Shown here: in pieces, positions 6,858 to 64,000 of the stretch
Position numbering within the stretch: the first letter of the stretch is position 1
Layout: each line of letters begins with the position of its first letter
Source: Siniperca chuatsi
Lineage: Eukaryota > Chordata > Actinopteri > Centrarchiformes > Sinipercidae
Direction: 5' to 3'
Length of the DNA stretch: 64,000 bases
NCBI RefSeq assembly: GCF_020085105.1
Contig: NC_058051.1
Coordinates: forward strand, 23,811,455 to 23,875,454
Program-made: the position numbers and the translations under genes
The notes under the pieces: generated by a model
Database searches by the model: none
Seen by the model: the letters and a program-made list of their open reading frames with translations, nothing else
Told to the model about the DNA's origin: nothing

Positions 6858-6948
6858 ATTCCTGTTGAAAATGCTGCTACGGCCTAAATCAATACAAGCT
6901 CAAGAGTGATTTTTGGACTTGACTGCTGCTCACAACATCACGTCAAAT
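6858..6948 (+). other. pnpla8: Probable 5' UTR part of pnpla8 first coding exon
   Basis: A pyrimidine-rich tract ending in 'ttttcctag' (ag at 6856-6857) could be the acceptor of the exon that holds the start codon. The stretch to 6948 contains stops and would be untranslated. Confidence 0.45.
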
Positions 6949-20700: not shown

Positions 20701-22920
20701 TGCGAATGCCTCAAGCATGTGTGACAGGTTTGTTCTGGTTTGTTTCCTCTGTAGCTCGTACAGTGGCCGAGGCTGCCCCCACCTGGCTGTCTCCCACAGG
20801 CTCATCCAGCTCCATACTAGTTCTGCAAGGGGAAGAACTGCTCCTGGAGTGTATTGCTGCAGGAATGTGAGTATGAACTCAAGATCAGGAGATTTACTGT
20901 AACTGTTTTTATAGTATATTCAGTGCTACTGTTTAGCCACAAAAAGTTATGTGTGTATATTCTATTGAGTATAATTTTGACTTTGATTTCATGAAAGTCG
21001 TCCTGTGTAAAGCCTTTTTTATCATCATCAAGGCCAACTCCTCGTATTACGTGGACCAAGGACGATGAGGACCTGGTGGTGATGTCACGCATGAAGGTAA
21101 AGAACTTCAACAAGATGATTCAAATCCCAAAGGCGTCTTTCGATGATGCGGGTAAATACGTCTGCGCTGCTACCAACAAGATCGGATACATTGAGCACAC
21201 AATTACTGTCAGGGTCAAAGGTGAGAGACACTTTCAGAAACATGTTGTCTTTTCTTACTGCACAACAATGTGGAAACAACTAACATACTTGTATTTGACA
21301 GCGGCTCCATTCTGGTTGGAGAAGCCAGCTGATTTGGTTTTGGCCCCTGAGGAAAATGGACGCTTGGTATGTCGTTCTGATGGGGTTCCTCGTCCCACAG
21401 TCAGCTGGTTCATCAATGGGGAACCAATTGAAAGTAAGTTTTTGAGGTCATGCCTACTAGCTGTAAAAGTATGTCTAGATAATATCAACCTTTGCTGTAT
21501 TTTTCCTTTTTTGTGTTTCTTTTTCCCAGCTGCTACACCGCAGCCTAACAGACAGGTGTCAGGAGACACGCTGACTTTACGCAGCGTGACCACTGCAAAC
21601 AATGCCGTCTACCAGTGCAATGCTTCCAATCAATATGGGTACTTATTGGCCAATGCTTTTGTCAACGTGCTACGTAAGTTACCACTCTGTCATCCATGAC
21701 ATTTTACAGTGTAAAATGTTGTTTTTCAGTCATGACCCAGCCATGAGTTGTGAATGTGATTTTGAATGGCTTGCCAAGGGGTCACCAATTAAAAAAAACA
21801 AAACAACAAGGTATATTTTAAGCATTCTTCACCTTTTAGTCTATACACTCAAATACATGTTCATTGTCATTGCATCTGTAAAAGTTGCTTCACTGCTGCA
21901 CCATTGTTTCACCATTGTCATAAAAATTGTGAGGATCTTATGGAAATGTTTTGAAATTTAATTTTAAAATACATTTTGGGAACCCTGTACTGTATATGCA
22001 TTTAATAACATAAAACACATGTATATACAATATAAGAGGATTTAGAAAAGTGGTGTTTACTTACAAACAAAAGTGAAAAAGCAAGAGCTAATCCATGCTT
22101 TATTTTTCTATCACATTAAATATGCCTGACTAAAAAGGCAACAAAGCAACAAAAAAAAAACAACTCAGCTAATCCAAAAACTGTTATAACTCTTGCAGAA
22201 ATGAATGTGTTCATGTATGACCCTATCACTAAGAAGCTGACTGAAGAAATACTGCATGTTTTCAGGGCCTTAATAGAAACTGTTTAAAAAATATTTTTCT
22301 GTAAACAACAAACACTAACAATAAGATATTAACATATTTCCAGAGCAGCTGGAGTGATTGGATAATTGCACATTTTTAGCCAGAGGCAAATGCCTGTTTT
22401 TGGGGACATAAAGATTTTGGCCATTATGTACTAACATAATACACAGGGAGGAATCCATGAAGGAAGAGATGCTACCTTCTCCACGGGCAGTAACCTCAGT
22501 ACACCATAAAGTAATGATGCCAAAAGATATATTTTATATTTTGAGTAAAGAGCAACTCTTTCTTTTGCTCCACCATCACAATTGTTCTTTCTCCATCCAC
22601 CTACACACACAGCGGTCAGTGAGAGGCATTTGGGAACTAAGAAATCAGTAACTATACTAGACACACAATGGGCAACACAGATTAAGGGAAAGAGGGTACA
22701 CCAAGAATATAAACTAAACATTTCATTATTAATTATCAATGTTTCTCTAGATGCAACACCACGTATTCTCGGGCCCAGGAATGAACTCATCAAGGTGACA
22801 GAGAACAGTCATACCTTCTTACACTGCCGCTACTTTGGTTCTCCAGTGCCTGAATTGCGATGGTAAGAACATGCTGTTTGACATTTTAATGCAAAAAGTG
22901 AGTTCAGACATCAGCTCACA

Positions 22921-22957
<37 letters not shown>

Positions 22958-30951: not shown

Positions 30952-32119
30952 AACTCAAAATTCAAACTGTCTTCCTGACTTCAACTCAACTATTTGTCAT
31001 GTGATTTTACCATGCTTGTACCCGCCACCTTGAATTAAGAACTTGTGGTGCTTTTGGTTTGTCTGCAGGAGGGAACAGCTGGAACCAGAGGTGCTGTTAC
31101 CCTCTGCGTCCTTGCAGGTAAAGCAACTTTAATGCATTTAAAGAAGAAAATGGTGGAATAGTTGGGACAATACTAGAGATGAGATGCTTATTCATCTGAT
31201 GAAAAGCAAGCTTTACCGTTTGTGTTTCATATTGCATATTCCTGTAAATAAAAACGCTGCGTGTTTGTGCATATGCATACGCATGAGTACATGTACGTGT
31301 TCAATTATCCTGTCAGTGCAGAGAGGCTGCACATCAGAGGAGACAGAAGTGGATCAGTTTATCATGTTGATAAAAGCAGTTGCAAGGACCAACTTAACTA
31401 CTGTTATTGCATCTTTTTCTTTCAGCTAATTCCAATAATGAGATTTGTGTTATTTTTGTATGATGGCTGTTTGAAATAAGGGCTGCATACCATACTTTCA
31501 CGATCAGGGGAACCACAATGTAATCCCTGAACTTCGATTGCTTCCTCTTTGTTGTACACACTAGTATTGAAGGTTCAATGTGAAAGTATAAAAGTGTTGT
31601 TGGTGATAAGTGAAGGATAATAAAATATCTCCAGGGACTAATGATTCATCTGCACAGTGAGTTTGCGAAATGTGATCTGATGGGAGGCAAGAGATTAAAC
31701 CATTTGGGGAATCCGCAAGTAGCCATGAATCAGCTGTAAAATCAGAAATTGCTCATGTTTCTCTACAAACTTGTCTCCCCATTTTACCCACTACGGAGAC
31801 AGAAATCATTCATTTTGATGTAACAGCTTTAGTGTATTTGACCTCTAACATCATCTGTGTATTACCACAGTTATGTCCTAAATGTAAATAAAGTGGAAAT
31901 ATTTATTCCTAGCATGTTTGATAGGACTCTGAATGTTGAATTCAGCTGCTCTGTTTCCGAATTTTAAAGGGGGTGGTTTATTATTCTTTGAATATAATTC
32001 TTAGAATTAGTTTTAACCGTTTGCAGGTGTCTGGGTTTAAGCCATCTGGAGAGTTTAAACAATGTGTTTGAATCACAGAATAGTGTACTTCATTTGCTTT
32101 AAAAACTTAAAGTTAAAGT

Positions 32120-34030: not shown

Positions 34031-34891
34031 GGGACTTACAGGTGGATCATAGGCATGTCCAGCCAATCACCTGGGAAGAGGTAAGTCATCAGCATACAGA
34101 GGTTTTAGTAGCCTACATTTTACAAGAATAAATGTTATGTGCAGCATTAGGCTACTACCTATAGTACAACCTGTAGAATCAGTTGCAATTTGCAAAAACT
34201 ATAATGCAATCTTATAAAGATTCGTAACACACAACATTTTTTTTTTGTTGCAGATCAGTCTGAGGAAAAGGCTCAGCTGATACAACATGGCTCAACTAAC
34301 AATCTTGGCTGGTAAGTTACATTCTTTCAGTTGTTAATTCATTCAGAGGCAGTGATCTCATGCAAAAAATGACATCAAATTTCAATTTTTTTAGGACTGT
34401 CCCTTTTGATGTATCTTCAGATAGGTAAGCATCCAGTATTTAACTTCTTTATGTCATTTGCTTTTTAACCCCATGACCTAGAATAGAAACTTAATTATAA
34501 TAATTTCTCTCCTCTCCAAAAATGTCTTCTACCAAACTGGTGTGCTACTTCACCAACTGGTCCCAGTATAGACCAGGTGTTGGCAAATATCTGCCTGCCA
34601 ATGTAGACCCCAACCTCTGCACACACCTGATCTACGCCTTTTCAATAATCAGCCCTTCTAACGAGCTGGCACCCTATGAGTGGAATGATGATGTTCTCTA
34701 TAAATCCTTTAATGAACTCAAGAATAGGTGAGTTGTTCCTGCCTGTAGAATCAATCAATTGCAGGTCTTCGTCACCGTCATTTTAAAACAACTAATCACA
34801 TCAGCAGTCGAGATGAAGTTGGATGTTTTAGTGTGATTATTGATTCAAGTGGTATCATTCAGTTTTCCATATAAGAAGATTTGATTTGATT

Positions 34892-35350
34892 AACTGCAGT
34901 GGAATCTAACTAAGTACATTTAGTTACTGTCCTGTGAAAACCATGTATCTCCAAAACGGCAGCTTTTCAGCTTTGTGGCAGTGCAATTTTCATATTATTG
35001 GTGCATTTTTAAATAGTTTGATTAGCTTAACAACTTAATTTTATCCTTTACATTTATTTTTTCTAATCCTTACTTCTTTCACTTACTCTAATTACCATTA
35101 GTGTACATTAGCCTAATAGCACATCATCTAGAGTATGCCACCCCCATATTTCACTGCACATATTGAAAATAAGAGTATGTGACAAATAAATCTTTGAATC
35201 TTCAATCCACTGCACTACATTTCAGAGGCAAATATAATACTTTTCACTCCACTATTTTCATCTCGCAGCTATCTGTATAGTTACTAGTTACTTTGCAGAT
35301 TAACATTTTACATACAAAAGCTATGCTCAACTTTGAAATTTGCACAGTAT
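34892..35350. repeat. Degraded hAT-like MITE fragment in chitinase pseudogene intron
   Basis: 'cagtggaatctaactaagta' at about 34900 and 'ccactgcactacatttcaga' near 35206 match the internal sequence of the CAGTGGTGG family. The right end is not recognisable and foreign sequence splits it. Confidence 0.5.
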
Positions 35351-36379
35351 ATAAAGGCCCAAAGTAAATAAATACGTATGTTCCAAACTTAAAAGAAAGG
35401 GTTTTGAGGGGACATGAGTAAAAAAAAAGACAAAAACTGTATGTAGTTTTATCATTAAATAAATTTTAAAAAGTGGAAGAAAAAAGAAAAAGATGCACTA
35501 ATTAATTGTAAATCCACATGTTTTTGCATATTTCTTGCACAGAAACCCCCGGCTGAAGACTCTGTTGGCTGTTGGTGGGTGGAACTTTGGACACACAAGA
35601 CACACAATTTAATACATCACAAAATTGAACTCAGATTGAATTAATACAAGCCCAGCATAAAGAAAAAGATGTTTCACATGAATCATGTTGAGGATGTAGT
35701 ATAATTTTCTTCCATTTCTACAGATTTGCACTTTCCTCCAAGGAGGCAGTCTTCACTGGATTGATGAGCAAATGGTGCCCTATGCCATTAAAGGAAATGC
35801 GTGGGTTGGGTTTGATAACAGACAGAGCTTTGAAATCAAGGTAATAAATAACATATTACCCTTCATATCTATGTTTATGGAGATAATAAACAAGATAAAA
35901 GTAGCTTATCTCTATCACTACTTGCCAGCTATAAGTATCTTTGCTTTCCTTCCTGTTTTTAATACCTCAGATTGAGCAGAAGGTCTCACTCTAACTTGAA
36001 ACTTTGCATTTCAGCAAACCAGTGTTGGAAATCCAACCCAGGTGTACAAATCAAAAAGACATCAAAGATAGAAAATATTATCTAATTCTTACATGATAGA
36101 GCCACCAAACTTCGCATATGTGTTGGATCAGAAATTATGTGATTTGGTTGTACTCTACATTACCACTGCTGCCTATATTGCCGATATATCACAGAATTTT
36201 TATCCTCGTAGTTGTTTGCAATGTGACACATGAATTATGGTAATAATACAGTTAAGTTACACATAAATGGAGGAAAGCATTTTCTGGCATGAGACAGTGC
36301 AGAAAAAACTTACAGGTGCTGGATCAAAAACAAACTGAAGGAAAAGGTCAGACAAAGGTCAGACTGTGCTGATACCTTA

Positions 36380-36421
36380 ATCTAACAGAGAAACGTTTCA
36401 GTCTAACAGATCTTCATCAGA
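36380..36421 (-). ncRNA. Hammerhead-ribozyme-like motif
   Basis: On the minus strand the core CTGATGA is followed by a short AGATCT-GTT-AGACT stem-loop and then GAAACGTTTC. These are the two conserved hammerhead core boxes (CUGAUGA, GAAA) around a small stem II. Penelope-like elements are known to carry such motifs. No element body is evident here. Confidence 0.4.
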
Positions 36422-36453
36422 ATTTGTCAAATAAACATCACAAAGCAGAGCAA

Positions 36454-36456
<3 letters not shown>

Positions 36457-36491
<35 letters not shown>
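36457..36491. repeat. (AT)n microsatellite
   Basis: About 17 uninterrupted AT units next to the hammerhead-like motif. Confidence 0.95.
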
Positions 36492-36494
<3 letters not shown>

Positions 36495-36703
36495 TAGACA
36501 CAAACACATTCATCACTCAGGTGGCTGCATGCGATCTGCATGATTGCAGCAGAGCTGGATAACACTGTCAGATACTTCCCATCGAGGGGACAAAACATGC
36601 CTTTAAGGAAAAGAATTAAGAATAAATATATAATCTATATTCATCTATGAGACTCATTATGTTCTTGTATTATGATGTTTATTATGATGTTTATCTGACA
36701 ATG

Positions 36704-36740
36704 CCTGACAAAGATCTCTTTTAGTTCGAAATGTTTTGTC
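36704..36740 (+). ncRNA. Degenerate hammerhead-like motif
   Basis: CTGACAAAGATCTCTTTTAG followed by TTCGAAATGTTTTGTC. It resembles CUGANGA...GAAA with substitutions and lies in opposite orientation to the better motif at 36380. Confidence 0.25.
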
Positions 36741-37086
36741 TTTTGTCTTTTATATTCTGACATGAGGCTATGCTAGACCATTCAGGGACCCCACAGTGCG
36801 TTGGGCCACATTTGGTCCTGTTGAATAGTGTCAGCATCACAAATGTTTAAACAACAGAAATAACGCAGACATAATTTCACCTTCAACTGGACTGTAACTA
36901 AAATCTTCAACTCTTTGGATGTAGAACGTCTCCCAAATTGGCTAGGACTCAAGTCTCTGTATTTCCTATTTATGTTTGGGGGTTCTTTGATATGATCAGA
37001 CACTTTTGCACTCTGTGAATAAAACCAAAAATGTTTTTTTTCTCATTCAATTCAGCTTAAATACTTGAGAAAGGTCTTGGAATGTG

Positions 37087-38348
37087 TATAGAACAATGTG
37101 ATGGTGTAGTCCCTCATTCGTCCAGGAGTGTTCCATCTCGGTTCTTTGTGAAAATCAAGAAACAAGACTTGGAAGCGTTCTCAGAGCATATCAATACGGT
37201 GGACCCCAACATCAAGTTCACGCGTGAGGATGCAAAAGAGAACCGCTTGGCCTTTCTTGATTGTTCTACTCTCAGAGGAGAGGACGGAAAGCTCCAGATA
37301 GAAGTGTACAGGAAACCAACACATACGGATCAATACCTGCTCTTTGACTCACACCATCCACTACAGCACAAGCTGGGTGTAATCCGGACATTACAACACA
37401 GAGCCAAAGAAGTGCCCACAGGCTCAGAGGGTAAGAAGAAAGAGGAAAGGCATGTCCAGAATGCACTCTCAGCCTGTGGTTATCCTACTTGGGCTATCAA
37501 CAAAGTTAAAAGAGCCAAAAACAGGACAAAAGTGTAACTGAACCGAGAAGGAACGGTGTCTCCATTCCTTATGTATCTGGACTGTCTGAAAACTACAAAG
37601 GATCTTTAGACAGCACGATGTTCCTGTCTTCTTTAAACCAGGCAACACTTTAAGACAGAAACTCGTTCACCCTAAGGACAAGTTACCCACACAAAAACAG
37701 AGCAATGTTGTCTATTCCATTCAGTGCAGTGAGGAAAACTGCAAAGAACGGTACATAGGCGAAACCAAACAGCCACTTCACAAAAGACTTTATCAGCACA
37801 GACGACACGCTAACTCAGGATTACAGAGCGCCGTGCATTTGCGTTTAAAAGCTACAAACCACACATTTGAAGACAGCGAGGTGAAGATTCTTAGTAGAGA
37901 GAAGAGTTGGTTTGAACGGGGCGTCAAGGAAGCCATTTTTGTGAAGAAAGAGAACCCCTCTTTGAACAGAAATGGTGGTCTGAGATTTAATCTGCCCAAA
38001 GTCTATCAGAGTGTATTATCACCTTGGTCACGCCTATCACATGCTAATCAGGCACTTAACAGTGATGAAGTAGATGCAGCCAGAAAACAATAGGCCTGAT
38101 TACTGATCACTGGGCCATCTTGAAACTATTAGGTCAGTTTCAGGTGAAACTAGCTATTAACAGATACTCAGGCAGATTCCCTCCTGAGGGCAGGGCTTAT
38201 GTAACTCAGATTAGCTTAAATTTCCAGTTCCCGTCCAATTTTTTCTCAATTGAGAATGACTTCCGGATGGGAGCCGAAACGTCTTGATTCTGAAAACAGT
38301 GTCCAGATGACTACGACTGAAACCTTTTCTACGATATAGAACAATGTG
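37087..38348 (+). mobile_element. Internally deleted Penelope-like retroelement with 14-bp target duplication
   Basis: The element (37101-38334) is bounded by perfect copies of TATAGAACAATGTG at 37087-37100 and 38335-38348. Inside are a reverse-transcriptase C-terminal piece (37133-37537, with IEVYRKPTHTDQYLLFDS and HPLQHKLGVIRTL) and, in another frame, a GIY-YIG endonuclease domain (about 37673-38093; VVYSIQC, RYIGETKQPLHKRLYQHR). The RT palm is absent and the frame is broken after 37537, so it is dead. The combination of Penelope-type RT and GIY-YIG domain is diagnostic. The first ~30 bp are shared with the miniature element at 48126, so the missing part is internal rather than a simple 5' truncation. 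It sits in an intron of the chitinase pseudogene. Confidence 0.85.
38263..38283 (+). ncRNA. Hammerhead-like core in Penelope 3' region
   Basis: CCGGATGGGAGCCGAAACGTC: a GGATG/GAAAC-GTC pair like the degenerate hammerhead cores at the ends of fish Penelope elements. The CUGAUGA box is altered at two positions, so activity is doubtful. Confidence 0.3.
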
Positions 38349-38937
38349 TTACACTTGTACCAGTTATATGTATTAAAACAACAAAACTTCCCATCCCATA
38401 GGCACAGTATCTGAAAGATAACAAATTTGGAGGAGCCTTCATCTGGTCACTAGATCTGGATGATTTTTCTGGACAGTTCTGTGGACAGGGAAACTATCCC
38501 CTCATTAGTTACCTGCACACTCTCCTGAATTCAGGTAAATAGAAATTAGACCTCAACTCTGCACAGCATGTAAAAGTTTCATTATCTCCACTAACAATTA
38601 AAATCTTCCTTCCATAATCTCTTGAATTTAAATATGTTTTATCTTGCTAGATCTTCCACCTCCCCCTCCTGTAACCACACTTCCACCAGTGAGCACAACC
38701 CGTCCCAGCCTAGCCGACACCACAACTGCTACCAATGCTACTACAACTACCACTGCCACAATTACCACAGCTGTTGTTTCTGGAAGTGATTTCTGTGCTG
38801 GGAAGAATGACGGCCTCTACATAAATGACAAGGACAGCAACTCCTTTTATCAGTGCGTCCACAGACACACATACCTCCAGAGATGTCCAGTTAATCTTGT
38901 TTTCAGTGACTGATGCAAGTGCTGCGACTGGCCTTAA

Positions 38938-39970: not shown

Positions 39971-42900
39971 ATGAGCAAGCTAATTCTAATTGCAGGTGAG
40001 GCACAATGAAAGGCATGAAACGGTTTCTTAAAATCTGTTTTTAACTAATATTTACTAACTAAATCTGTAACTTTGAAGGTCTCTGTCTTTCCCTTGGCAA
40101 TTTGGGTGAGTTCACAAGTTATATTAATGATTAATACTGAACAGTCTTAGTAGCAACTGAACACAGTCTATATTGTTAAATATCTAGTCAATGATTATTC
40201 CTCAAAGATTAATGAAAACTATTTCTGTTCTTCCATGTTTAGTCTCATCCTCCAGACTGGTGTGTTATTTCACTAACTGGTCCCAATACCGACCTAGCAA
40301 TGGGAAGTTTATGCCTCTAAATATTGATCCAAACCTGTGTACCCACCTGATCTATGCCTTTTCTGGTATTAATGAGGCTAATGAGTTAGTCACCATAGAA
40401 TGGAACGATGACGACCTCTACACATCCTTTAATGGGCTCAAACAGAGGTCAGTCCAGAATTTTCTAGCAGTATCTCTTGTAAAATGTTATGAAAAATAAT
40501 CATAGCTGGCAACTAAAATTGTACATTCCCACAGGAATCCAAATTTAAAAACACTGTTGGCAGTCGGAGGCTGGACCTTTGGAACACAAAAGTGAGATAT
40601 TTAGCACAAAACAATCAATAAAGATCAATGTAATGTATGTATGTCTTCTTGAGAGCATTTTTCTTTCCCCAAAATGCTACCCAGATTCACTACAATGGTG
40701 TCAACACAAGCCAACAGAAATACATTTATCCAGTCTTCTATCAAACTACTGAGAAAATATGGTTTTGATGGACTAGACCTGGACTGGGAATACCCCGCTG
40801 CAAGAGGAAGTCCTCTCGAGGACAAGCAGAGATTCACAGTGTTATGCAAGGTCAGATCCATAATTATTGTTCTGGAGTTCAACTGATGTTTAACATAAAC
40901 CATTAGGTGATTTTCCTATGATTCTGTGGTGTACAGGAACTCCTAGAAGCCTATGAGGCTGAGGGAACTGCAACTGGTAGGTCCAGATTAATGATCTCTG
41001 CTGCTGTGGCTGCTGGGAAAGGAACCATTGATGCTGGTTTTGAAATTGCAGAGATGGCAAAGTACACCAAATTGTTACTCCCCACATTATTCCGATGATT
41101 AGCTGTCATAATGTTTTGGTGAACTTGCACTAACATGCATTTTATCAGGTACCTGGACTTTATTAATGTGATGACATACGACTTTCATGGCTCCTGGGAG
41201 AGTGTGACAGGACATCACAGCCCCTTATACAAGGGATCCAAAGACACTGGGGACCATGTTTACTTAAATACTGTGAGTACAGGGATTCATTTTTTAGCTG
41301 CATCATCTAATGCCAACTCACTCTTTGTTTCTTGCTCAGTAAGTGCATTTCCATCCACCTGTTTTTATGCAGATTTTCAATTTAAGAATTAAATTAAGAA
41401 ACCCAAGTGGAATTTTTTTTTAAAGTTCAAATATTGGAAAAAAATTTCTACGCTTGGCTGAGGTGGAAAGGTTGGTGTTTGATACATGCAAAATGCGACA
41501 GAAACAGAATTAGCAAATTAATCATGACTTGCAAGAAGCATGTGACTTAAACGTCTGAAGTTTCCGCTCCACTGGAGAGACGAAAAATAGCAGCAGATGA
41601 AAACATCAGATCTGTGAGGAGCAATGAGGAGATGGTAACATTTCTCAAATTAATACATGAAACAAACATAAATGGCATATTTCCATCAGGTTTTCCACAT
41701 GGTTTTCCTTCATTTGAGGTTTGACTGGCGTTCTCTTCTCCTGCAATGGTTTAATGGCATTCGACTGGAGAATTGGTGCCACCAACTGTTTATCTCTTTA
41801 TATTCGCAAAAAAGTCATGGATGGAAACACGCGTCAATTGGCATTTTATTTTGCTGATTTCTGGAAATTCTGTTAAAATTTGCATTACATTTGGATGGAA
41901 ACGTGACTTCTGTCTATCTCTTTTTATTCACTTTTCAGGACTTTGCCATGAGGTATTGGCGGGACAAGGGAACACCTGTAGAAAAGCTAAATATGGGCTT
42001 TGCTACATACGGGAGAACATTTCAACTGTCTACTCAATCCAGTCAGGTTGGAGCACCAGCCAGTGGTCCCGCTGCTGCTGGTGTTTTTACACGGGAGGCC
42101 GGCTTCTGGTCTTATTATGAGGTTTCATTGACGATTCATTGAATTGATCTATCTTTTATAGTCTATATTACTGATAAAAAGATGAAGTTATTTTATTATG
42201 AAGCCATCACACAGAGCTTCAATACATTGGTTTTCATTTTCTTTTCAGATTTGCACTTTTCTTCAAGGGGCCAGTGTCCACTTGATTGAGGACCAGAAAG
42301 TTCCATATGCCGTCAAACAAAATGAGTGGGTTGGATATGACAACAAAGAAAGTTTTGAGACTAAGGTAGTCATGTGTTTCTATAAAAATGTTGCTCAATT
42401 CTTTTGCCAGATACCACATGTACAAAGTCAAGTTAAAATACAGTGTTAAAGTACATACAAGTGTTGCTATCGTTGTTTATTCAGGTGCGTTACCTAAATG
42501 GCAGCAGATTTGGAGGCGCTTTCGTCTGGGCTCTGGATCTGGATGACTTTAATGGACAGTTCTGTGGACAGGGAAACTACCCTCTCATCAGCTATCTCCG
42601 CTCTCTTTTGGCTTCAGGTAAATAGAATTTATATATTGTTAAAATGTTTTCTTTCATAATTCACACAGCATTAATTAATTTCTTGACTTTTGTCAACTTT
42701 GATTGTACAGAATACTAATATTTCACTATTATTTCTACAGATCTTCCTCCCCTTCCCACTACAGAAACCATTCCAAATCAAGTGACTCTGTCTACAAACA
42801 AAGATTCCACCACACCTAGTTCCAGACCTTCAATCACTACTTCAACCAAAATCCCAGACAACAACTTCTGTGCAACAAAGACCGGTGGGGTTTATGCCAA

Positions 42901-43012
42901 ACCTGATGCCCCAGGTTCCTTTTACAATTGTGCCAATGGCATCACCTGGATCCAAAACTGCCCAGCTAATTTGGTCTTTCGAGATAGCTGCAAATGCTGT
43001 GACTGGCCCTAA
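39971..43012 (+). CDS. chia: Acidic chitinase (GH18 + CBM14), intact copy
   Basis: Eleven exons: 39971-39995, 40079-40105, 40243-40447, 40535-40591, 40685-40850, 40937-41061, 41149-41272, 41939-42121, 42249-42365, 42485-42617, 42741-43012. All phases agree; 477 aa, the usual length of acidic mammalian chitinase. Signal peptide about 1-20, then the GH18 barrel beginning [16 protein letters not shown]. The catalytic motif DGLDLDWE occupies 133-140, with Glu140 as the proton donor at the same number as in human CHIA. Other conserved blocks are [16 protein letters not shown] and [11 protein letters not shown] 43-aa Thr/Ser/Pro linker (388-430) leads to a C-terminal CBM14 chitin-binding domain with six Cys (from 431; ends CKCCDWP). 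A secreted endochitinase, probably of stomach or gut, that cleaves dietary chitin. The intron before exon 8 carries a MITE (41345-41902). Phylogeny would be needed to say which teleost chia paralog this is. Confidence 0.95.
41345..41902. mobile_element. MITE with GTTTCCATCC-type ends in chia intron 7
   Basis: Begins GCATTTCCATCCACCTG and ends ATTTGGATGGAAAC, an inverted pair. It contains 'tggctgaggtggaaaggttg' and 'catgacttgcaagaagcatg', known fish repeat sequence as far as I can judge. Non-coding. A related short copy is at 25228. Confidence 0.6.
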
Positions 43013-51026: not shown

Positions 51027-54000
51027 ATGTGCAAGCTAACTCTAACAGCAGGTAAGGCATGCTGGTCAAGTAAATGTTTCCTTAAAGAGTATGTTTCACT
51101 TACCTCAAGTGGTATCTAGCCATGCAAATAGTTTTTGCTTTATTTACCCATGTTTTTGTCTCTCAGATTACAGTGAGAATACGGTGAAATTTAATTGAAT
51201 TTGGTTTGTGGCGCTTACGAATGAAAATTTGCATTTAGAAAATTCACTGGCAAGCAGAAACAGCATCTCCATTACTCTGGATAATCTGCACAGTGAGGCC
51301 TGTGGATTATCCAGAATAGTGGGGACAGGGTTTCTGGATAGACACGTTGCTGTTGTACATTTTTCAAATGTAAAACGAAATTCCAATGTATTGGGGTGGC
51401 TTCAGAAATCATAGAGAGCAATATCTCATTAACCTGGACAAATAAAACCAAACCTATCTGTAATGCTAGAGACCAACTAGACATACTAGAAGTGAGTGAG
51501 AAAATCTGTTTCTTTAAATTTTGTGATTTGGGTGAACTGACCTCTTAAGCTTTATTTTTAACCTAATACTGACCACATCTCTCACTTTGAAGGTCTCTGT
51601 TTGATCATCGCCAGTTTGGGTAAGTTTATAACAAATCAACAATCTTACTAACAAATAAATAATGTCTCCAAGTCAACAATTGTTGGTAAACAAGGATCTT
51701 GATATCACTGATGTCTTCAAAAACTAATTAAAACCATCATAATTTTCTTCTATGTCTCAGCCTCTTCCTACAGGCTGGTGTGTTACTATAACAGCTTGGC
51801 TGAAAATAGAGCGGAGGACGGGAGGTTTACTGTGTCAGATATCGATCCAAACCAGTGCACCCATCTGATCTATGCCTTTTCTGACATTAACAACCAACAT
51901 CAGCTGGTCCCCAGCAGTGAAACTGACATACAACGCTATAAGTCCTTTACTAGACTCAAAACCAGGTCAGTGCTTTAGCCTAGAAATATTGTGGAAATTA
52001 TGTTGAATTTTGTGTTTTGTTAATAATAATTACTAAACTTTTATGCTCCCACAGAAATCCACTGCTCAAAACCCTGTTGGCGGTTGGTGGCTTGACATTT
52101 GACACAAAAAAGTAAGTCACTTACAAGAACATTTAGGCCTTTTTTGTGCCAATGCAAAGACAAAGTGTGTAAACAGCACTTCAACATATTGGTATTTTTA
52201 CTATGAAACTTGGTTTGCCCATTCATGCAGTATTTTTGAGCTTTGCACAGCATGCATGGTGCATAATTTCATACAAATGAGGTAGCACAAAGTGAGATTT
52301 GGGTATTTGATTGAATGAATGAGTTAATTTCATGATTCCATCAGCAGACACAAACAAAATATGTGTTATAAATTTTTAGCAACTACATAATAATGTAAAT
52401 ACACACTTAAATATAGTCCAACCAGCAGAAATATTTTTACCCGATACCTTCATTACATTATGTGAAACCAAAAGCTGTTTGCTGCAAAATAATCACACTA
52501 ATATGTGCACATAAAAATGCTCAGTATTCTTGAGATCTGCAAACACCAAATGGATTTGTGGTTGCATTAAAAGTTTTAACTTAGTCTTTTTTAAACATTT
52601 TTTTATTTTGTTAATGTTGATGTTGGCAAATCTAATGCAATCTAAATGCAACCACATTCATCACTAAAAGCCCACAGAAAACAATTTAGCATGCATTTTT
52701 ATTTTACTCCTACTTTTTATACTAATACTTGAAAAAAATGCATTGTAGCCTAATAAAGAGGTCAGTAACTGCATATGATAGGTATGTGGATCATTTTTAT
52801 CATTCATAATTACCAGTGAAAAACATGGTAGCCAGATAATTTGCCTAAGGCTGTATATTTGTCTTTGCACACATGACCTTCTGCTTTGCACTGTGCGCTA
52901 TTAAAACAGAACCCTTAAATGTAGTATCTGGAGTGTCTTCTTGAGAGCACTGTTTTGTTCAAATGTTTACCAGATTCAGTACAATGGTGTCAACACAAAG
53001 CAACAGAACAAACTTCATCCTGTCTGCTATCACACTACTGAGAGCAATTGGGTTTGATGGGCTAAACCTTGACTGGAGGTACCCCAGAGGAGTTAGGAGC
53101 CAACCACAGGACAAGCAGAGATTCACACTACTGTGCAAGGTCAGATCCTGAATTTGCCATACTGTATAAAAATATAAGATTCTATACTTGACTAAGACTG
53201 AACCATGCTTCTGTATTGTATAGGAGCTCAAAGAGGCCTTTGTGGCTGAGGGAACTGCAGCTAACCGTGACAGATTAATCATCACTGCTAGTGTCTCTGC
53301 TGATAAAGAAACAATCAATGCCAGTTATGAAGTCGCACAGATTGCCACGTAAAACGAATTTAATGTAATTCTTGACATCATACCCATGATTAGCTGTCAT
53401 CATGACTTGGTGAACGTGATTTCCTCTGCATTTTACCAGGTACCTGGATTTCATTAATGTGCTGACATTTGACTTTCACGGCCCCTGGGAAAGTGTCACA
53501 GGTCATCACAGCCCCTTATACAGAGGATCCCAAGACACTGGAGACAAAATCTACTCTAACACTGCAAGTACAGGGATTCATATTTCAACCACCAAAACAC
53601 CTTTCTATTTAGAGATGTCTTCTCATCCTAATTGTTTTTTTTTCTCCACATTTTAGGACTCTGCCATGCAGTATTGGCGGGACCAGGGAGCACCTACGCA
53701 AAAGCTAAACCTGGGGTTAGCGGCATATGGGCGAGCTTTTGACCTCTCCTCTGCATCCATTGATGTTGGAGCACCAGCCAGTGGTCCTGGTGAGGAAGGC
53801 TGCTACACCGATGAAGAAGGATTCTGGGCCTTTTATGAGGTAAACTGCAAGCTGTGAATAGAATTAATTTATATCAATAGCCTTAGTATAAGCACATGAC
53901 TTTTATTGCATCTGTTTATGTTAAATAAAATTTAAATGTGACATTTGACCCTTCTTTTCAGACTTGCCTTTATCTTGAAGGGGTTACAACACTGCTGATT

Positions 54001-57000
54001 ACTGATCAGAAAGTTCCATATGCCACCACAGAAAATCAGTGGGTGGGATTTGACAACAAAACCAGCCTTGGTAATAAGGTAATCATCTATTTAATTCAAA
54101 CTATTGCTCAGTAATTATTTTGAAAATGACTGATTGTACACAAATCTGAATAAATAGATATTTGGTTGACATGACTTCAGCTGTTGAAGTGTTTTCTTCT
54201 TCATCCTTTCAGGTCACTTACCTAAAAACTAACAACTTTGGAGGAGCCTTTGTCTGGTCTCTTGACCTAGATGACTTTAATGGAAAGTTCTGTAAACAGG
54301 GCAACTACCCCTTCATCACCCACCTGCATAAACTCCTGGTTCCAGGTAAACAAAGTGAAAAAAGTGTCTATCCTGTCCTTTCATGAGATGGTAGTTTTTA
54401 GTGTGTATTTGATGTAATGTCATCAACATGAATGTAATCACATTTTATTTACTTTATTACTTGCATTATTGTGCAAATGTGTGATCTTTCTAATTAGAAA
54501 TTACAGTAGCCACGTTCAGTGATATTAAAACTTAATGTCATGTTCAAGAGCAATTAACACAATATCTAACTCCTTCTTTTAGGTTTTCCTGGCCTTACCA
54601 CTCCAACTCCCATAACCACCCCCACTAACACCACCGCAACCACGACTCCTGCTACCACAACAACTCCCCCTTCTACAACCATAACAACGTCCACAACAAC
54701 AACCAAAACAGCTCCCGGTGGTATAGCAACAAACCCTGCTACAACAAACACAACAATGCCCACTACCACAATACCTACCACAGCAACAAAAATAGCCCCA
54801 ACCATAACCACAACAACTCCTCCTACAAAAAACACAAGAACTTCCACCACCACAGCTACAAAAACTCCCACTACCACAACCAATACTCCCCCTACAACTA
54901 CCACAACAACTTACCCTACTACAACCACTGCCCCAACCACAGCCACAACTCCCCCTACTACAACAACTCTACCCACCACAACCACAAAAGCTCCCCCTGC
55001 TACAACAAAAAATCCTCCTACCACAACAACAATGCCAACTACCACAACAACTCCCCAAACCAAAACAACTCCCACTACTACTACAACTCCCCCCACCACA
55101 ACCACATCAGCTTCCCAACTACGACAACTCCCCTACCACAATCACACCTCCCTACTACAACTCCCCTACCACAGCCACAACTCCCATCACCACAACTCCC
55201 CATATTACAACCACAACTTCCCCTACCACAATCACAACAACTCCCCTACTACACCACTCACCCTACCACAGCCACAACTCCCCCTACTACAACAACTCTA
55301 CCCACCACAACCACAAAAGCTCCCCCTGCTACAACAAAAAATCCTCCTACCACAACAACAATGCCAACTACCACAACAACTCCCAAACCAAAACAACTCC
55401 CACTACTACTACAACTCCCCACCACAACCACATCAGCTTCCCAACTACGACAACTCCCCTACCACAATCACACCTCCCCTACTACAACTCCCTACCACAG
55501 CCACAACTCCCATCACCACAACTCCCCATATTACAACCACAACTCCCCCTACTACAACCACTCACCCTACCACAGCCACAACTCCCCCTACTACAACAAC
55601 TCTACCCACCACAACCACAAAAGCTCCCCCTGCTACAACAAAAAATCCTCCTACCACAACAACAATGCCAACTACCACAAGAACTCCCCAAACCAAAACA
55701 ACTCCCACTACTACTACAACTCCCCCAACACAACCACATCAGCTTCCCCAACTACGACAACTCCCCCTACCACAATCACACCTCCCCCTACTACAACTCC
55801 CCCTACCACAGCCACAACTCCCATCACCACAACTCCCCATATTACAACCACAACTTCCCCTACCACAATCACAACAAATCCCCCTACTACAACCACTCAC
55901 CCTACCACAGCCACAACTCCCACCACCACAACAACTTTCCCCACCACAACCACAACAGCTCCCCCTACTACAACAACTCATTCTACCACAACTCCCCCTA
56001 CCAAAACCACAACACCACCCACTACCACAACAACTCCTGCTTCCACAACCACAAAAATGCCCCCACCACAACAACTCCCCTACTACAACAACTCCCCCAC
56101 CACAACAACTACAGCTCCCCTTCTACAACAGCTACTTCTACCACAACAATGCCCACTACTACAACCACATCACCCCGACAACGATAACTCCCCTTATTAC
56201 TACAATAACAACACCCTCAACCACCTCCACAACAACTCCCACTACCACAAATCTCCCTACCACAACAGCGGCAAATACTATAACAACTCACCCTACCACA
56301 ACGACCACAATGCCCACTACCACAAATCCCCCTACTACAACCACAACTTCCCCTACCACAACAACTCCCGTAACTACAACTTCTCCCCTTACCACAGCCA
56401 CAACTTCCGCTACCACAACATCTCCCCCTACTACAACCATAACAACTCCCCCTACCAAAACCACAACTCCCACTACCCATACTACAGCCACAACAAGACT
56501 CCCAACTACAACTACAACAACTCACCTTACTACAACTCCCCCCACCACAACCACAACAGCTCCTTCTACCACAACAACAATGCCCACTACTACAACAACT
56601 CCCCCTAACACAACAGCTTCCCTTACAACAACAACTCGCCAAATGACAACAACAATAATTCCCACTACCACAACAACTCCCACAAGCACAACAGTACTCA
56701 CTACCACAACTCCCACTACCACTGCCACAACAACTTCCAATACCATTATAACAACTTCCCCTACTACTACAACTACCCCCACCACAACAGCTTCCCCTAC
56801 TACAACAACTCCTCCTACCACAACAACCATGCCAACCACAAAAACTCCCCCTGCTACTAAAACTCCCTCCACCACAACCACAACAGCTTCCCCTACTACA
56901 ACAACTCCTCCTACCTCAACAACAACTCCCCCTACAACAACCACAACAGCTACCCTTACTACAACAACAATGCCACCTACCACAGCAACAATGCCATCTA

Positions 57001-58511
57001 CCACAACAACTCCCCCAACTACAACGACTCACTCTACCACAACCACAGCACCCGCTAGGACAACTTCTCCTGCCACAACAACTCTCGTAACCACAAAAAC
57101 ACCCCCAACCACAACAACTCCCCTTACTACTACAACTCCCTCTACCACAACCACAAATCCCACTAGGACAACAACATCCCCTGCCACAACAACTCCCGCT
57201 ACCACAACAACACCCCCAACCACAAGAACTCACCCTACTACTACAACTCCCTCAACCACAACCACAAAACCCCCTAGGAAAACAACTTCCCCTACCACAA
57301 CCACAACAGCTCCCCTTACTACAACAACAACTCCTCCTACAAGAACAACAATGCCAACTACCACAACAACTCCCCCTACTACAACGACTCCCTCTACCAC
57401 AACCAAAACACCCCCTAGGACAACAACGTCCCCTGACACAACAACTCCCGCTACCATAACAACAACCCCAACCAAAACAACTCCCCCTACTACTACAACT
57501 CCCTCCACCACAACCACAACAGCTTCCCCTACAACAACTCCTCCTACCACAACAATAACTCCCCCTACCACAACCACAAAAGCTTCCCTTACTACAACAA
57601 CAACTCCTCCTACCGCAACAACGATGCCAACTACAACAACTCACGCTACTACGACAACTCCCTCTACCACAACCACAACTCCTGCTACCACAACAACACC
57701 CCCAACAACAAAAACTCCCCCTACTACTGCAACTCCCCCTACCACAACCACAACAGCTTCCCCTACAACAACAACTCCTCCTACCACAACAACAATGCCA
57801 ACTACCACAACAAATCACCCTACTACGACTCCCTCTACCACAACAACAACTCCCGCTACCACAAAAACACCCCCAACCAAAACAACTCACCCTACCACTA
57901 CAACTCCCTCTATCACAACCAAAACACCCCCTAGGACAACAACTTCCCCTACCACAACCACAACTCCCACTACCACAAGAACATCCCCAACCAAAACAAC
58001 TCACCCTACTGCTATAACTCCCTCTACCACAACCACAACACCCCCTAGGACAAAAAGTTCCCCTACCACAACCACAACTCCCCCTACTACTACAACTCCC
58101 CCAAAACAACCACAACAGCTTCCCCTACAACAACAACTCCTCCTACCTCAACAACAACTCCCCTACCAAAACCACAACAGTTCCCCTTACTACAACTCCT
58201 CCTACCACAACAACAATGCCAACTACCACAACAACTCCCCCTACTACAACGACTCCAACCACAACCACAACAGCTTCCCCTACTACAACTCCTCCTACCT
58301 CAACAACAATGCCAACTACCACAACAACTCCCCCTACTACAACGACTCCCACCACAACCACAAAAGCTTCCCCTACAACAACAAATCCTCCTACCACAAC
58401 AATGCCAACTACCACAACAACTCACCCTATTACGACGACTCCCTCGACCACAACCACAACTCCTGCTACCACAACAACACCCCCAACCACAACAACTCCT
58501 CCTACTACTAA
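51027..58511 (+). CDS. Catalytically dead chitinase-like protein (chi-lectin) with giant mucin-like tail
   Basis: Exons 51027-51051, 51593-51619, 51761-51965, 52055-52111, 52974-53139, 53224-53348, 53440-53563, 53657-53839, 53962-54078, 54213-54345 have exactly the sizes of exons 1-10 of the intact chia gene. Exon 11 starts at 54583. Signal peptide, then a complete GH18 domain (to about 387). The active-site motif reads DGLNLDWR (133-140): Asp136 is Asn and the proton donor Glu140 is Arg. Also changed are CYFTNW to CYYNSL, GGWTFG to GGLTFD and MTYDFHG to LTFDFHG. Hydrolysis should be lost, while [10 protein letters not shown] and the fold remain, as in chitin- or glycan-binding chi-lectins. 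From residue 388 the protein is Thr/Pro repeats, open to a stop at 58509-58511 (1696 aa). That stop exists only in a shifted frame, so the real product is probably longer. Intron 7 uses a GC donor. The architecture resembles oviductin (OVGP1). Confidence 0.85.
51170..51420. repeat. Palindromic sequence in intron 1 of the chi-lectin gene
   Basis: 'ctctggataatctgcacag' (about 51277-51295) and 'ctgtggattatccagaat' (51300-51318) are inverted copies around a short loop. The surrounding sequence looks like a MITE fragment of unknown family. Confidence 0.4.
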
Positions 58512-61500
58512 AACTCCCCCCACCACGACCACAACAGCTTCCACTACAACAACAACTCCTCCTAACACAACAATGCCAACTACCACAACAACTCACCCTA
58601 CTACGACGACTCCCTCTACCACAACCACAACACCTGCTAGGACAACAACTTCCCCTACCAAAACCACAACTCCCCCTACCACAACCACAAAAGCTTCCCT
58701 TACTACAACAACAACTCCTCCTACCGCAACAACGATGCCAACTACAACAACAACTCACGCTACTACGACAACTCCCTCTACCACAACCACAACTCCTGCT
58801 ACCACAACAACACCCCCAACTACAAAAACTCCCCCTACTACTGCAACTCCCCCTACCACAACCACAACCGCTTCCCCTACAACAACAACTCCTCCTACCA
58901 CAACAACAATGCCAACTACCACAACAAATCACCCTACTACGACTCCCTCTACCACAACCAAAACACCCCCTAGAACAACAACTTCCCCTACCACAACCAC
59001 AACTCCCACTACCACAAGAACATCCCCAACCAAAACAACTCAATCTACTGCTACAACTCCCTCTACCACAACCACAACACCCCCTAGGACAACAACTTCC
59101 CCTACCACAACCACAACTCCCACTACCACAACAACACCCTCAACCAAAACAACTCCCCCTACTACAACAACTCCTCCTACCTCAACAACAACTCCCCCTA
59201 CCACAACCACAACAGTTCCCCTTACTACAACTCCTCCTACCACAACAACAATGCCAACTACCACAACAACTCCCGCTACTACAACGATTCCCACCACAAC
59301 CACAACAGCTTCCCCTACTACAACAACTCCTCCTACCTCAACAACAACTCCCCCTACCACTACCACAACAACTTCCCCTACCACAATAACAACTTCTCCT
59401 ACTGCAACCACTGCCCCAGCCACAACCACAACAACTCCCACAACCACAACTCCTCTTTCCACAACAACAATGCCAACTACCACAACAACTCACCTTACTA
59501 CAACAGCTCCCTCTACCACAACCACAACACCCCCTACGACAACAACTTCCCCTACCACAACCACAACTCCCTCTACCACAACCACAACACCCCCTAGGAC
59601 AACAACTTTCTCTACCACAACCACAACTCCCGCTACCACAACCACAACAGCTTCCCCTACTAAAACAACTCCTGCTACCGCAACAACTCCCCCTATGACA
59701 ACCACAACAACTCCCCCTACCACAATAACAACTCCCCCTACTACTGAAACTCCCTCCACCACAACCAAAACAGCTTCCCCTACTACAACAACTCCTCCTA
59801 CCTCAACAACAACTCCCCCTACCACAACCACAACAGCTCCCATTGCTACAACAACTCCTCCTACCACAACAACAATGCCAACTACCACAACAACTCCCCC
59901 TACTACAATTACTCCCTCTACCACAACCACAACACACCCTAGGACAACAACTTCCCCTGCCACAACAACAACTCCTGCTACCACAACAACACCCCCAACC
60001 ACAACTCCTTCTACTACTACAACTCCCCCTACCACAACCACAACACCCACTAGGATAACAACTTACCCTACCACAACCACAACTCCCACTACCACAACAA
60101 CACCCCCAACCACAACAACTCCCCCTACTACTACAACTCCCTCCACCACAACCACAACAGCATCCCCTACTACAACAACTCCTCATACCACAACAATGCC
60201 AACTACCACAACAACTCACCCTACTACTACAACTCCCCCCACAACAACCACAACAGCATCCCCTACAACAACAACTCCCGCTACCACAACAACAATGCAA
60301 ACTACCACAACAACTCACCCTACTACAACAACTCCCTCTACCACGACCACAACTCCCGCTACCACATCAATACCCCCAACCACAACAACTCACCCTACTA
60401 CTACAACTCCCTCTACCACAACCACAACACCCCCTAAGACAACAACTTCCCCGACCACAGCCACAACTCCCGCTACCACAACAACATCCCAAACTACAAC
60501 TCCCCCTACTACTACTACTCCCCCCACCACAACCACAACAGCTTCCCCTACCACAATCACAACTCCCCCTACCACAGCCACAACTCCCGCTACCACAAAA
60601 ACTCCCCATACTACAACCACAACTTCCCCTACCAGAACCACAAAAACTCCCCCTACTACAACTACTCCCCTCCCACATCCACCACATCCCCTAGGACAAC
60701 AAATTCCCCTACCACAACAACAACTCCTGCTACCACAACAACACCCCTAACCACAACAACACCCCCTACTACTACAACTCCCCCCACCACAACCGCTTCC
60801 CCTACTACAACAACTCCTCCTACCACAACAACAATGCCAACTACCACAACAACTCAACCTACTCCAGCAACTCCCTCTACTACAACCACAACTCCCGCTA
60901 CCACAACAACACCCCCAACCACAACAACTCACCCTACTACTACAACTCCCTCTACCACAACCACAACAGCTTCCCCTACTAAAACAACTCCTGCTACCTC
61001 AACAACTCCACCTATGACAACCACAACAACTCCCCCTACCACAATAACAACTCTCCCTACCACAGCCACAACTCCTGCTACCACAACAACTCCCCCTACT
61101 ACTACAACTCCCCCTACCACAACCACAACAGCTTCCCCTACTACAACAACTCCTCCCTCAAGAACAACTCCCCTACCACAAACACAACAACTCCCCTACT
61201 ACAACTACTCCCCCTACCACAGCCACAACTCCCGCCACCACATCAACTCCCCATATTACAACCACATCTTCCCCTACCACAATCACAACAACTCTCCCTA
61301 CAACAACTCATTTTACCACAACAACTCACCCTACTCCAACTACTCCCCCTACCACAGCCACAACAGCTTCCCCTACTACAACAACTCCTCCTGCCTCAAG
61401 AACAACTCCCCCTACGACAACCACAACAGCTCCCCTTACTACAACCACAACTCCTCCTACCACAACAACAATGCCAACTACCACAACAACTCCCCCTACT

Positions 61501-64000
61501 ACTACAACTCCCCCCACCACAACCACAACAGCTTCCCCTATGACAACAACTTCTCCTACCACAACAACTCACCCTACTACAACGACTCCCTCTACCACGA
61601 CCACAACTCCTGCTACCACAACAACACCCCCCCAACCACAACAACTCCCCTACTACAACTACTCCCCTACCACAGCCACAACTCCTGCTACCACAACAAC
61701 ACCCCAACCACAACAACTCCCCTACTACAACTACTCCCCTACCACAGCCACAACACCCCCTAGGACAACAAATTCCCCTACCACAACAACAACTCCTGCT
61801 ACCACAACAACACCCCCTACTACTACAACTCCCCCCACCACAACCGCTTCCCCTACTACAACAACTCCTCCTACCACAACAACAATGCCAACTACCACAA
61901 CAACTCAACCTACTCCAGCAACTCCTCTACTACAACCACAAATCCCGCTACCACAACAACACCCCCAACCACAACAACTCACCCTACTACTACAACTCCC
62001 TCTACCACAACCACAACAGCTTCCCCTATGAAGACAACTTCTCCTACCACAACAACTCACCCTAGTACAACGACTCCCTCTACTACGACCACAACTCCTG
62101 CTACCACAACAACACCCCCAACCACAACAACTCCCCTACTACAACTACTCCCCTACCACAGCCACAACTCCTGCTACCACAACAACACCCCCAACCACAA
62201 CAACTCCCCTACTACAACTCTCCCTACCACAGCCACAACACCCCTAGGGACAACAAATTCCCCTACCACAACAACAACTCCTGCTACCACAACAACAACC
62301 AACTACCACAACAACTCAACCTACTCAGCAACTCCTCTACTACAACCACAACTCCCGCTACCACAACAACACCCCCAACCACAACAACTCACCCTACTAC
62401 TACAACTCCCCCCACCACAACCGCTTCCCCTACTACAACAACTCCTCCTACCACAACAACAATGCCAACTACCACAACAACTCAACCTACTCCAGCAACT
62501 CCTCTACTACAACCACAACTCCCGCTACCACAACAACACCCCCAACCACAACAACTCACCCTACTACTACAACTCCTCTACCACAACCACAACAGCTTCC
62601 CCTATGACAACAACTTCTCCTACCACAACAACTCACCCTACTACAACGACTCCCTCTACCACAACCACAACTCCTGCTACCACAACAACACCCCCAACCA
62701 CAACAACTCCCCCTACTACAACTACTCCCCCTACCACAGCCACAACTCCTGCTACCACAACAACACCCCAACCACAACAACTCCCCCTACTACAACTACT
62801 CCCCCTACCACAGCCACAACTCCTGCTACCACAACAACACCCCCAACCACAACAACTCCCCTACTACAACTACTCCCCCTACCACAGCCACAACACCCCT
62901 AGGACAACAAATTCCCCTACCACAACAACAACTCCTGCTACCACAACAACACCCCCTACTACTACAACTCCCTCTACCACAACCACAACAGCTTCCCTAT
63001 GACAACAACTTCTCCTACCACAACAACTCACCCTACTACAACGACTCCTCTACCACAACCACAACTCCTGCTACCACAACAACACCCCCAACCACAACAA
63101 CTCCCCTACTACAACTACTCCCCTACCACAGCCACAACTCCTGCTACCACAACAACACCCCCAACCACAACAACTCCCTACTACAACTACTCCCCTACCA
63201 CAGCCACAACACCCCTAGGACAACAAATTCCCTACCACAACAACAACTCCTGCTACCACAACAACACCCCTAACCACAACATAACACCCCCTACTACTAC
63301 AACTCCCCACCACAACCGCTTCCCTACTACAACAACTCCTCCTACCACAACAACAATGCCAACTACCACAACAACTCAACCTACTCCAGCAACTCCCTCT
63401 CCTACAACCACAACTCCCGCTACCACAACAACACCCCCAACCACAACAACTCACCCTACTACTACAACTCCCTCTACCACAACCACAACTCCCGCTACCA
63501 CAACCACAACAGCTTCCCCTACTAAAACAACTCCTGCTACCTCAACAACTCCACCTATGACAACCACAACAACTCCCCCTACCACAATAACAACTCTCCC
63601 TACCACAGCCACAACTCCTGCTACCACAACAGCTTCCCCTACTACAACAACTCCTCCTGCCTCAAGAACAACTCCCCCTACGACAACCACAACAGCTCCC
63701 CTTACTACAACCACAACTCCTCCTACCACAACAACAATGCCAACTACCACAACAACTCCCCCTACTACTACAACTCCCCCCACCACAACCACAACAGCTT
63801 CCCCTATGACAACAACTTCTCCTACCACAACAACTCACCCTACTACAACGACTCCCTCTACCACGACCACAACTCCTGCTACCACAACAACACCCCCAAC
63901 CACAACAACTCCCCCTACTACAACTACTCCCCCTACCACAGCCACAACTCCTGCTACCACAACAACACCCCCAACCACAACAACTCCCCTACTACAACTA
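54583..64000 (+). repeat. Giant Thr/Pro mucin-type coding repeat array (single exon, runs off window)
   Basis: 9.4 kb of nearly pure A/C/T sequence on the + strand built from short units such as 'actccccctaccacaacc', encoding [11 protein letters not shown] and [12 protein letters not shown]. Blocks of hundreds of bp recur, with near-identical copies, for example 54990/55319/55623 and about 60957-61080 against 63500-63625. The motif 'atgccaactaccacaac' recurs about twenty times. The Thr/Pro frame moves between the three + frames; long frames cover 54583-58511, 58216-60750, 60834-61763, 61471-62031 and 62028-63002. Dense Thr would be O-glycosylated, as in mucin PTS domains. In both paralogs the same exon has a Thr/Pro linker and then a CBM14 domain, so the array is the expanded linker; a CBM14 may follow outside the window. 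Confidence 0.92.

Follow-up and report, generated by a model that had tools for sequence, protein, structure and literature searches.

The GH18 gene cluster and the head of gene C

We analyzed a stretch of 64,000 nucleotides (nt) of the Siniperca chuatsi genome (NC_058051.1, positions 23,811,455 to 23,875,454), in the following termed the window, which sits on contig 10 of a 718.8-Mb assembly comprising 65 contigs. The element in question is a gene, termed gene C, in which a chitinase-like GH18 head is joined to a very long threonine/proline (Thr/Pro)-rich array. The array outruns the window, whose end falls inside the last exon of the gene; the next 39.8 kb of the chromosome were also read, and the window coordinates were continued past 64000 for the downstream features. 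Gene C is preceded by an intact neighbor, gene B, and followed at a distance of 11.5 kb by a paralogue in the same direction, gene D (83243–86889). The features of genes B and C within the window are collected in Table 1.

Table 1 Features of genes B and C within the window.
Feature	Position	Strand	Basis or remark
Gene B, intact neighbor	39971..43012	+	Intact catalytic motif, same exon lengths
Gene C exon 1, signal-peptide start (MCKLTLTA)	51027..51051	+	25 nt, length as in genes B and D
Gene C exon 2	51593..51619	+	Spliced model
Gene C exon 3, start of the GH18 domain	51761..51965	+	Spliced model, Pfam
Gene C exon 4, GGL where chitotriosidase has GGW	52055..52111	+	Spliced model, alignment
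Gene C exon 5, destroyed catalytic motif	52974..53139	+	Alignment; identical change in gene D
Gene C exon 6	53224..53348	+	Spliced model
Gene C exon 7, followed by a GC donor at 53564	53440..53563	+	GC also in gene D
Gene C exon 8	53657..53839	+	Spliced model
Gene C exon 9	53962..54078	+	Spliced model
Gene C exon 10, end of the GH18 domain, phase 1 donor	54213..54345	+	Spliced model
Gene C exon 11, part within the window, Thr/Pro-rich array	54583..64000	+	Array continues to ~71230, exon stop at 71739
Cleanest stretch of the array	56172..60666	+	Thr/Pro reading continuous over 4.5 kb apart from two frame breaks

The spliced head of gene C comprises 387 codons without a stop, distributed over ten exons (25, 27, 205, 57, 166, 125, 124, 183, 117 and 133 nt) whose lengths are identical in genes B, C and D. 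Pfam Glyco_hydro_18 (PF00704) matched the head over the complete profile (1–317 of 317) with an E-value of 2.5e-89, and among its relatives in the PDB acidic mammalian chitinase (8fg5) scored best with an E-value of 2.7e-121, followed by chitotriosidase. Judged by these matches, the head is a member of the GH18 chitinase fold family. The phase 1 junction between 54345 and 54583, through which a preliminary description of this locus had connected the head to the array, is present in gene C and common to genes B and D.

The catalytic residues of chitotriosidase are described as Asp136, Asp138 and Glu140 (PMC6904773). In the alignment with this enzyme, the head of gene C carries Asn in place of the first Asp of the DxDxE motif and Arg in place of the catalytic Glu. 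The DxxDxDxE motif with the catalytic Glu, characteristic of active GH18 enzymes, is absent from genes C and D and intact in gene B. The full-length Pfam match, the open head and the altered catalytic motif bear out the earlier view that the GH18 domain is complete and its active site destroyed. Beyond the catalytic residues, the Trp residues of the chitotriosidase motifs CYFTNW and GGW are replaced by Leu, and the Trp of HGSWE and of one further motif as well as the Tyr and Arg of YGR are kept. We take the aligned Trp residues to be involved in sugar stacking or contacts, and since two of them are Leu in gene C, a weaker sugar binding by the head is possible. Glycan binding by the head is possible, but the pair of CBM14 domains encoded at the end of the gene would be the better candidate for chitin binding.

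On contig 2 (32445359–32445526), a further paralogue reads DGLNLAWEYP at the catalytic motif, an alteration that apparently represents a separate loss.

The Thr/Pro array, the CBM14 end and the short-linker paralogue

The frame entering exon 11 at 54583 is free of stops until 58511, and its longest open run of 1,308 residues compares with 194–366 residues in 20 dinucleotide-matched random resamples. The repeats had been described as staying open for 3.9 kb, which is correct with respect to stops, but the Thr/Pro reading itself is unbroken only to 55115, where the first frame break occurs. Moreover, the other frames of the array are also long and open, so that openness constitutes weak evidence for coding, and it was rejected as proof thereof.

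The coding pattern of the array was described by a three-state phase model in which frame changes are allowed. The array amounts to 16.6 kb and reaches to ~71230, 7.2 kb beyond the window end. Codon position 2 is C in 91.5% of the codons and position 1 is A or C in 90%, with position 3 being spread over A, C and T. The 5,450 in-phase codons comprise 62.1% Thr, 19.6% Pro and 4.4% Ser, adding up together with Ala to 91.5%, and do not contain a single stop. The phase model yielded a log-likelihood per base of −0.905 on the array, and three dinucleotide resamples scored −1.31 to −1.32. With frame changes permitted, the array displays the long Thr/Ser/Pro-rich tandem repeats of mucin PTS domains. 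The preliminary estimate, according to which the repeats with repaired frames fill the remaining 9.4 kb with over 3,000 residues, is consistent with the portion inside the window and too small for the entire array. The underlying combination of an inactive GH18 head with a giant mucin-like Thr/Pro domain encoded in one exon is supported.

No Pfam family matched the 1,313-residue open stretch of the array, and VWD, CysD or cystine-knot domains gave no Pfam match in the head, this open stretch or the CBM14 end, the segment from 58511 to ~70900 lying outside the scan. In the absence of supporting domains in the scanned parts, and with one Cys codon among the 5,450, the initially suggested gel-forming mucin, taken in the disulfide-linked sense, was rejected as unsupported.

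Behind the array, exon 11 encodes two CBM14 domains (~71238–71388 and ~71583–71738) that are both located in an open frame continuous with the upstream Thr/Pro sequence, are separated by a Thr/Pro spacer of ~65 residues and are terminated by a TAG stop at 71739. The last exon thereby measures ~17.2 kb in the order array, CBM14, spacer, CBM14. Pfam CBM_14 matched this end in two stretches with an E-value of 1.1e-17, and a search of solved structures with the CBM14 sequence alone yielded no match at an E-value of 0.01. The two units including their Thr/Pro lead-in (71067–71394 and 71409–71740) are 89.6% identical in a self-comparison at loose settings, so that the second unit may be an intra-array copy. 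As in fish chitinases of the CHIA/CHIO type, the carboxy-terminus following the last-exon linker is formed by CBM14 sequence, here by two domains.

Gene D provides the closest comparison. It shares with gene C the dead motif, the GC donor and the ten head-exon lengths, and it is arranged as head, 23-residue linker, CBM14, TTTTPTKVPTG spacer, CBM14 and stop. Genes C and D are identical in bases 2–29 of the last exon as well as in the ACAACACCCACTAAAGTA stretch that precedes the first CBM14, and because these flanks match on both sides, the array sits inside a gene D-like linker. With ~5,500 residues, the linker of gene C would be expanded over 200-fold compared to that of gene D. Gene B is, by its sequence, of the normal architecture of GH18, short linker and CBM14, with the last exon (42741–43012) encoding a 43-residue linker containing Thr, Ser and Pro and one CBM14. 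For five further paralogues, the open frame before the CBM14 spans 43 to 88 residues, which is an upper bound that may include intron. A genome-wide CBM14 search scored 29 candidates with at least 13 matches; among the matches listed, 13 of 13 are located at chitinase loci (contigs 2 and 10) or in remnants between genes C and D. The simplest history would be a loss of activity, followed by the duplication and subsequently by the linker expansion in gene C. The reverse, a contraction of the linker in gene D, seems less likely; all other linkers seen are short.

The remnants between genes C and D are two collapsed copies (75661–75976 and 79120–79536) that fuse the exon 1 region to CBM14 sequence. 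The former keeps some Thr/Pro sequence between these two parts, and the upstream sides of both belong to a duplicated block whose two copies (74150–75731 and 77628–79190) share 96.9% identity. Within the window, gene A (34504–38935) is an apparent chitinase pseudogene, for which only exons 3, 4, 9 and 10 and a CBM14 exon were matched, several others not being found. Its CBM14 contains a stop, and a Penelope-like element (GIY-YIG type, assigned by eye) is located between exons 9 and 10 at ~37061–38093.

Frame breaks, sequence constraint and the integrity of gene C

We consider it probable, at about 0.6, that the product of gene C is a secreted chitinase-like protein consisting of a signal peptide, a dead GH18 domain, a Thr/Pro linker of ~5,500 residues and two CBM14 domains flanking the ~65-residue spacer, and that this protein arose by linker amplification. 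Several observations weigh against this reading. The assembled frame from the head of gene C stops at 58511, upstream of the CBM14 domains, and 132 phase changes are inferred within the 16.6 kb (50–152 depending on the penalty). The number of breaks per kb rises only about two-fold over classes of increasing repeat length after merging of C runs (5.0, 4.7, 9.8, 7.6 and 10.3) and follows no clear trend with respect to the raw repeat length (7.3, 4.1, 8.9, 16.4 and 3.3), and the kilobase holding the most breaks (29, at 68584–69583) belongs to the less repeated ones. The splice donor of exon 7 is GC and not GT, a deviation shared with gene D (85447), GT being retained in gene B. The second CBM14 ends with CCDYSNK instead of CCDWP and shows a weaker excess of third-position differences from gene D (8/14 and 7/13). 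For the heads of genes C and D, the nonsynonymous (dN) and synonymous (dS) divergences are 0.074 and 0.119, respectively, corresponding to a ratio of 0.62, with near-equal changes at the three codon positions (31, 29 and 32 of the 92 differences among 1,161 sites). Because these changes are even over the codon positions, the amino-acid sequence of the head seems only loosely held, suggesting that either the constraint on the head of both genes is weak or that the head is changing fast. Finally, the location of the protein in the gut, as considered below, is inferred only.

The first alternative is a decaying or truncated gene, in which the breaks are real, the repeat is a runaway and the product ends near 58511 or is not made at all, with gene D being the functional copy. 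Besides the stop at 58511, the 132 frame changes and the weakly constrained head, it is in line with the frequent occurrence of broken copies at this locus, namely the two remnants between genes C and D as well as gene A. We nevertheless regard a decaying gene as unlikely, based on the nature of the breaks and on the state of the sequence on both sides of the array.

The breaks are clustered, with 13 located in 55116–56172, 2 more up to 60666 and 117 in 60667–70637, and 105 of the 132 phase changes are of the kind made by one lost base. Near-identical copies within the array were aligned based on 82 windows of 400 nt, for 58 of which a partner spanning 150 nt or more was obtained; pairs with less than 94% identity were dropped. 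After a rough removal of duplicates 40 pairs were left, with some overlap between pairs remaining. Their 12,943 aligned nt exhibited 74 mismatches and 167 gaps, 149 of which lie inside C runs. All 167 gaps are 1–2 nt long, although the tight drop-off limits used for this alignment could let long gaps escape. The introns of genes C and D, in contrast, exhibited 200 mismatches and 29 gaps over 1,965 aligned nt, with only six of these gaps being 1–2 nt long. The gaps between the array copies, short, mainly confined to C runs and more than twice as frequent as substitutions, are thus sharply unlike those of the introns, and due to this difference most breaks look like consensus errors. We consider it quite likely that most of the frame breaks in the array arose in this way, as their pattern fits homopolymer miscounts that were unpolishable in a repeat.

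The involvement of C runs is also evident from the breaks themselves, as a CCC is found within 8 nt of 101 of the 132 breaks versus 55% of random positions. Exact repeats of at least 200 nt make up a fraction of 0.192 of the array, which rose to 0.35 upon merging C runs, stayed at 0.192 upon merging G or T runs and was 0.15 upon merging A runs. This bias is partly explained by the composition of the array, since long C runs are much more common than long A runs (380 versus 50 runs of at least 4). In addition, the content of Thr, Pro, Ser and Ala is as high in the break-rich zones (0.87–0.94) as in the break-poor ones (0.84–0.92), although the phase model itself favors Thr and Pro. Together with the lack of stops among the 5,450 codons and the two open CBM14 domains behind the array, these properties argue against decay.

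The head points in the same direction. Between genes C and D it contains no indel, compared to 17.1 expected at the gap rate of the introns, and no stop, compared to 3.8 expected among 92 random changes, suggesting that the head of gene C was kept open since the duplication. Polarized by gene B, the changes comprise 18 nonsynonymous and 13 synonymous ones in gene C and 27 nonsynonymous and 12 synonymous ones in gene D, with 22 remaining unpolarized. Within the array, 34 of 70 mismatches between copies in concordant phase are located at the third codon position (p 0.006), with 8 more mismatches being discordant, and for the first CBM14 the differences from gene D fall at the third position in 7 of 10 and 6 of 9 cases.

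According to a second alternative, which we deem improbable, splicing removes most or part of the array, with exon 10 being joined to a cryptic acceptor within or at the end of the array, resulting in a short gene D-like linker. The array is C-rich and offers CAG and AAG as possible acceptors (by eye, unscored), and genes B and D have short linkers following the same junction. However, the acceptor of gene C at 54581–54582 is homologous in place to the acceptors of genes B and D, and the Thr/Pro coding pattern runs on through the array.

Gene C as a candidate chitin-anchored mucin

If gene C encodes the full-length chitinase-like protein, the gene would have been inactive already when the short Thr/Pro-coding linker of its last exon was tandemly amplified into the array. 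The whole of exon 11 would be translated, and the Thr residues (62%) would carry O-glycans, turning the linker into a stiff, hydrated mucin rod. The CBM14 pair, perhaps with the help of the head, could hold this rod on chitin, where it would form a glycan brush or a cross-link, for example on the chitinous gut membrane of ray-finned fish. The best reading of the product is that of a putative secreted, heavily O-glycosylated, chitin-anchored mucin, perhaps residing in a chitinous gut barrier. Gene C would combine a known family and exon plan with a very unusual size and a probable change of role.

Chitinous membranes separating microbes from mucus are known in the guts of ray-finned fish (PMC6109156). 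In salmon, pyloric caeca and gut are reported to express CHIO and chitin synthase genes, for which a role in the remodeling of such structures was proposed (PMC10234404). A search of the S. chuatsi genome for chitin-synthase-like exons yielded five weak matches. Three loci, one of them on contig 1 and the others on contig 17, carry the motif EDRWLCTLLL, with QRRRW present at two of these three, and the match on contig 4 contains neither of the two motifs. Pfam Chitin_synth_2 matched the exon on contig 1 with an E-value of 5e-9. The same search also matched 4 of 14 control genomes, all four of them bacteria. The identity of these exons rests partly on motifs that we take to be those of chitin synthases.

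The known systems closest to gene C include the fish chitinases of the CHIA/CHIO type. Fish chitinases with a linker and CBM14 are known (PMC10761930), and ten salmon proteins annotated as CHIA are listed with signal peptide, GH18 and CBM14 (PMC10234404). Gene C shares with this type the signal peptide, GH18, linker and CBM14 as well as the exon structure and phase 1 junction of gene B, whereas it lacks the catalytic residues and has two CBM14 domains. Elongation of the linker is also seen in the sardine stomach chitinases SmeChi-1 and SmeChi-2, which, however, are active; their linkers are described as the longest among the fish stomach chitinases identified as of 2016, and the available part of that report mentions no mucin-scale array (PMC4728518). 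Salmon Chia.5 is likewise a fish chitinase whose catalytic motif carries loss-of-function changes, but its chitin-binding domain is truncated, in contrast to the two full CBM14 domains of gene C, and the available part of its description mentions no giant linker (PMC10234404). A chordate mucin with a chitin-binding domain is represented by Ci-GFM1 of Ciona (PMC6109156), which differs by its gel-forming scaffold of the VWD type with disulfide domains, none of which was found in the Pfam-scanned parts of gene C. Among the matches listed for the open-licence literature, as far as titles and the beginnings of abstracts tell, there was no vertebrate chitinase with a mucin-scale linker.

The composition of gene C further resembles that of insect peritrophins and intestinal mucins, which are described as bearing chitin-binding domains in the chitinous gut lining. 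Some of them combine chitin-binding with mucin domains, and, like peritrophins with at least two CBM14 and a mucin domain, gene C contains both elements, with chitin binding being predicted. To our knowledge, these insect proteins have no GH18 head. In addition, the mucin of gene C would have grown from a chitinase linker and in a vertebrate; the likeness is one of parts and does not imply descent. Whether a dead vertebrate chitinase has indeed become a chitin-anchored mucin of ~6,000 residues, a counterpart of separate origin to the arthropod peritrophic mucins with its short-linker sister adjacent, we put at even odds.

The preliminary description had instead assigned an oviductin-like architecture to gene C. 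OVGP1 resembles gene C in that an inactive GH18 domain is joined to a Ser/Thr-rich mucin-like domain, but it is described as a two-domain protein, the mucin-like part of which is carboxy-terminal and comprises 158 residues in buffalo (PMC6904773). This description sets OVGP1 apart, and gene C is not of the oviductin type because its array is an internal linker, two CBM14 domains follow as in chitinases, and gene D is a short-linker gene. An oviductin-like carboxy-terminal mucin was rejected in view of the exon end with its two CBM14 domains, and an oviductin-like reproductive glycoprotein coating eggs or the reproductive tract, although in line with the inactive GH18 and the mucin-like domain, is highly improbable given that, of the relatives found, the closest one lies in tandem with gene C and has the architecture of a chitinase.

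Should gene C encode a chitin-anchored mucin, it would exemplify a direct route of mucin birth, in which an enzyme first loses its activity and its short Thr/Pro linker then grows by tandem repeats. Ray-finned fish would also own a dedicated protein that could tie O-glycan brushes to chitin, a point relevant to the construction of the chitinous membranes reported from the fish gut. As the short and the giant copy are located side by side, both points are testable in one species.

Further upstream in the window (6910–11421 and ~18000–31000), the open reading frames indicate, by eye, a PNPLA8-like patatin-type phospholipase and an NRCAM-like cell-adhesion gene with Ig and FN3 domains.

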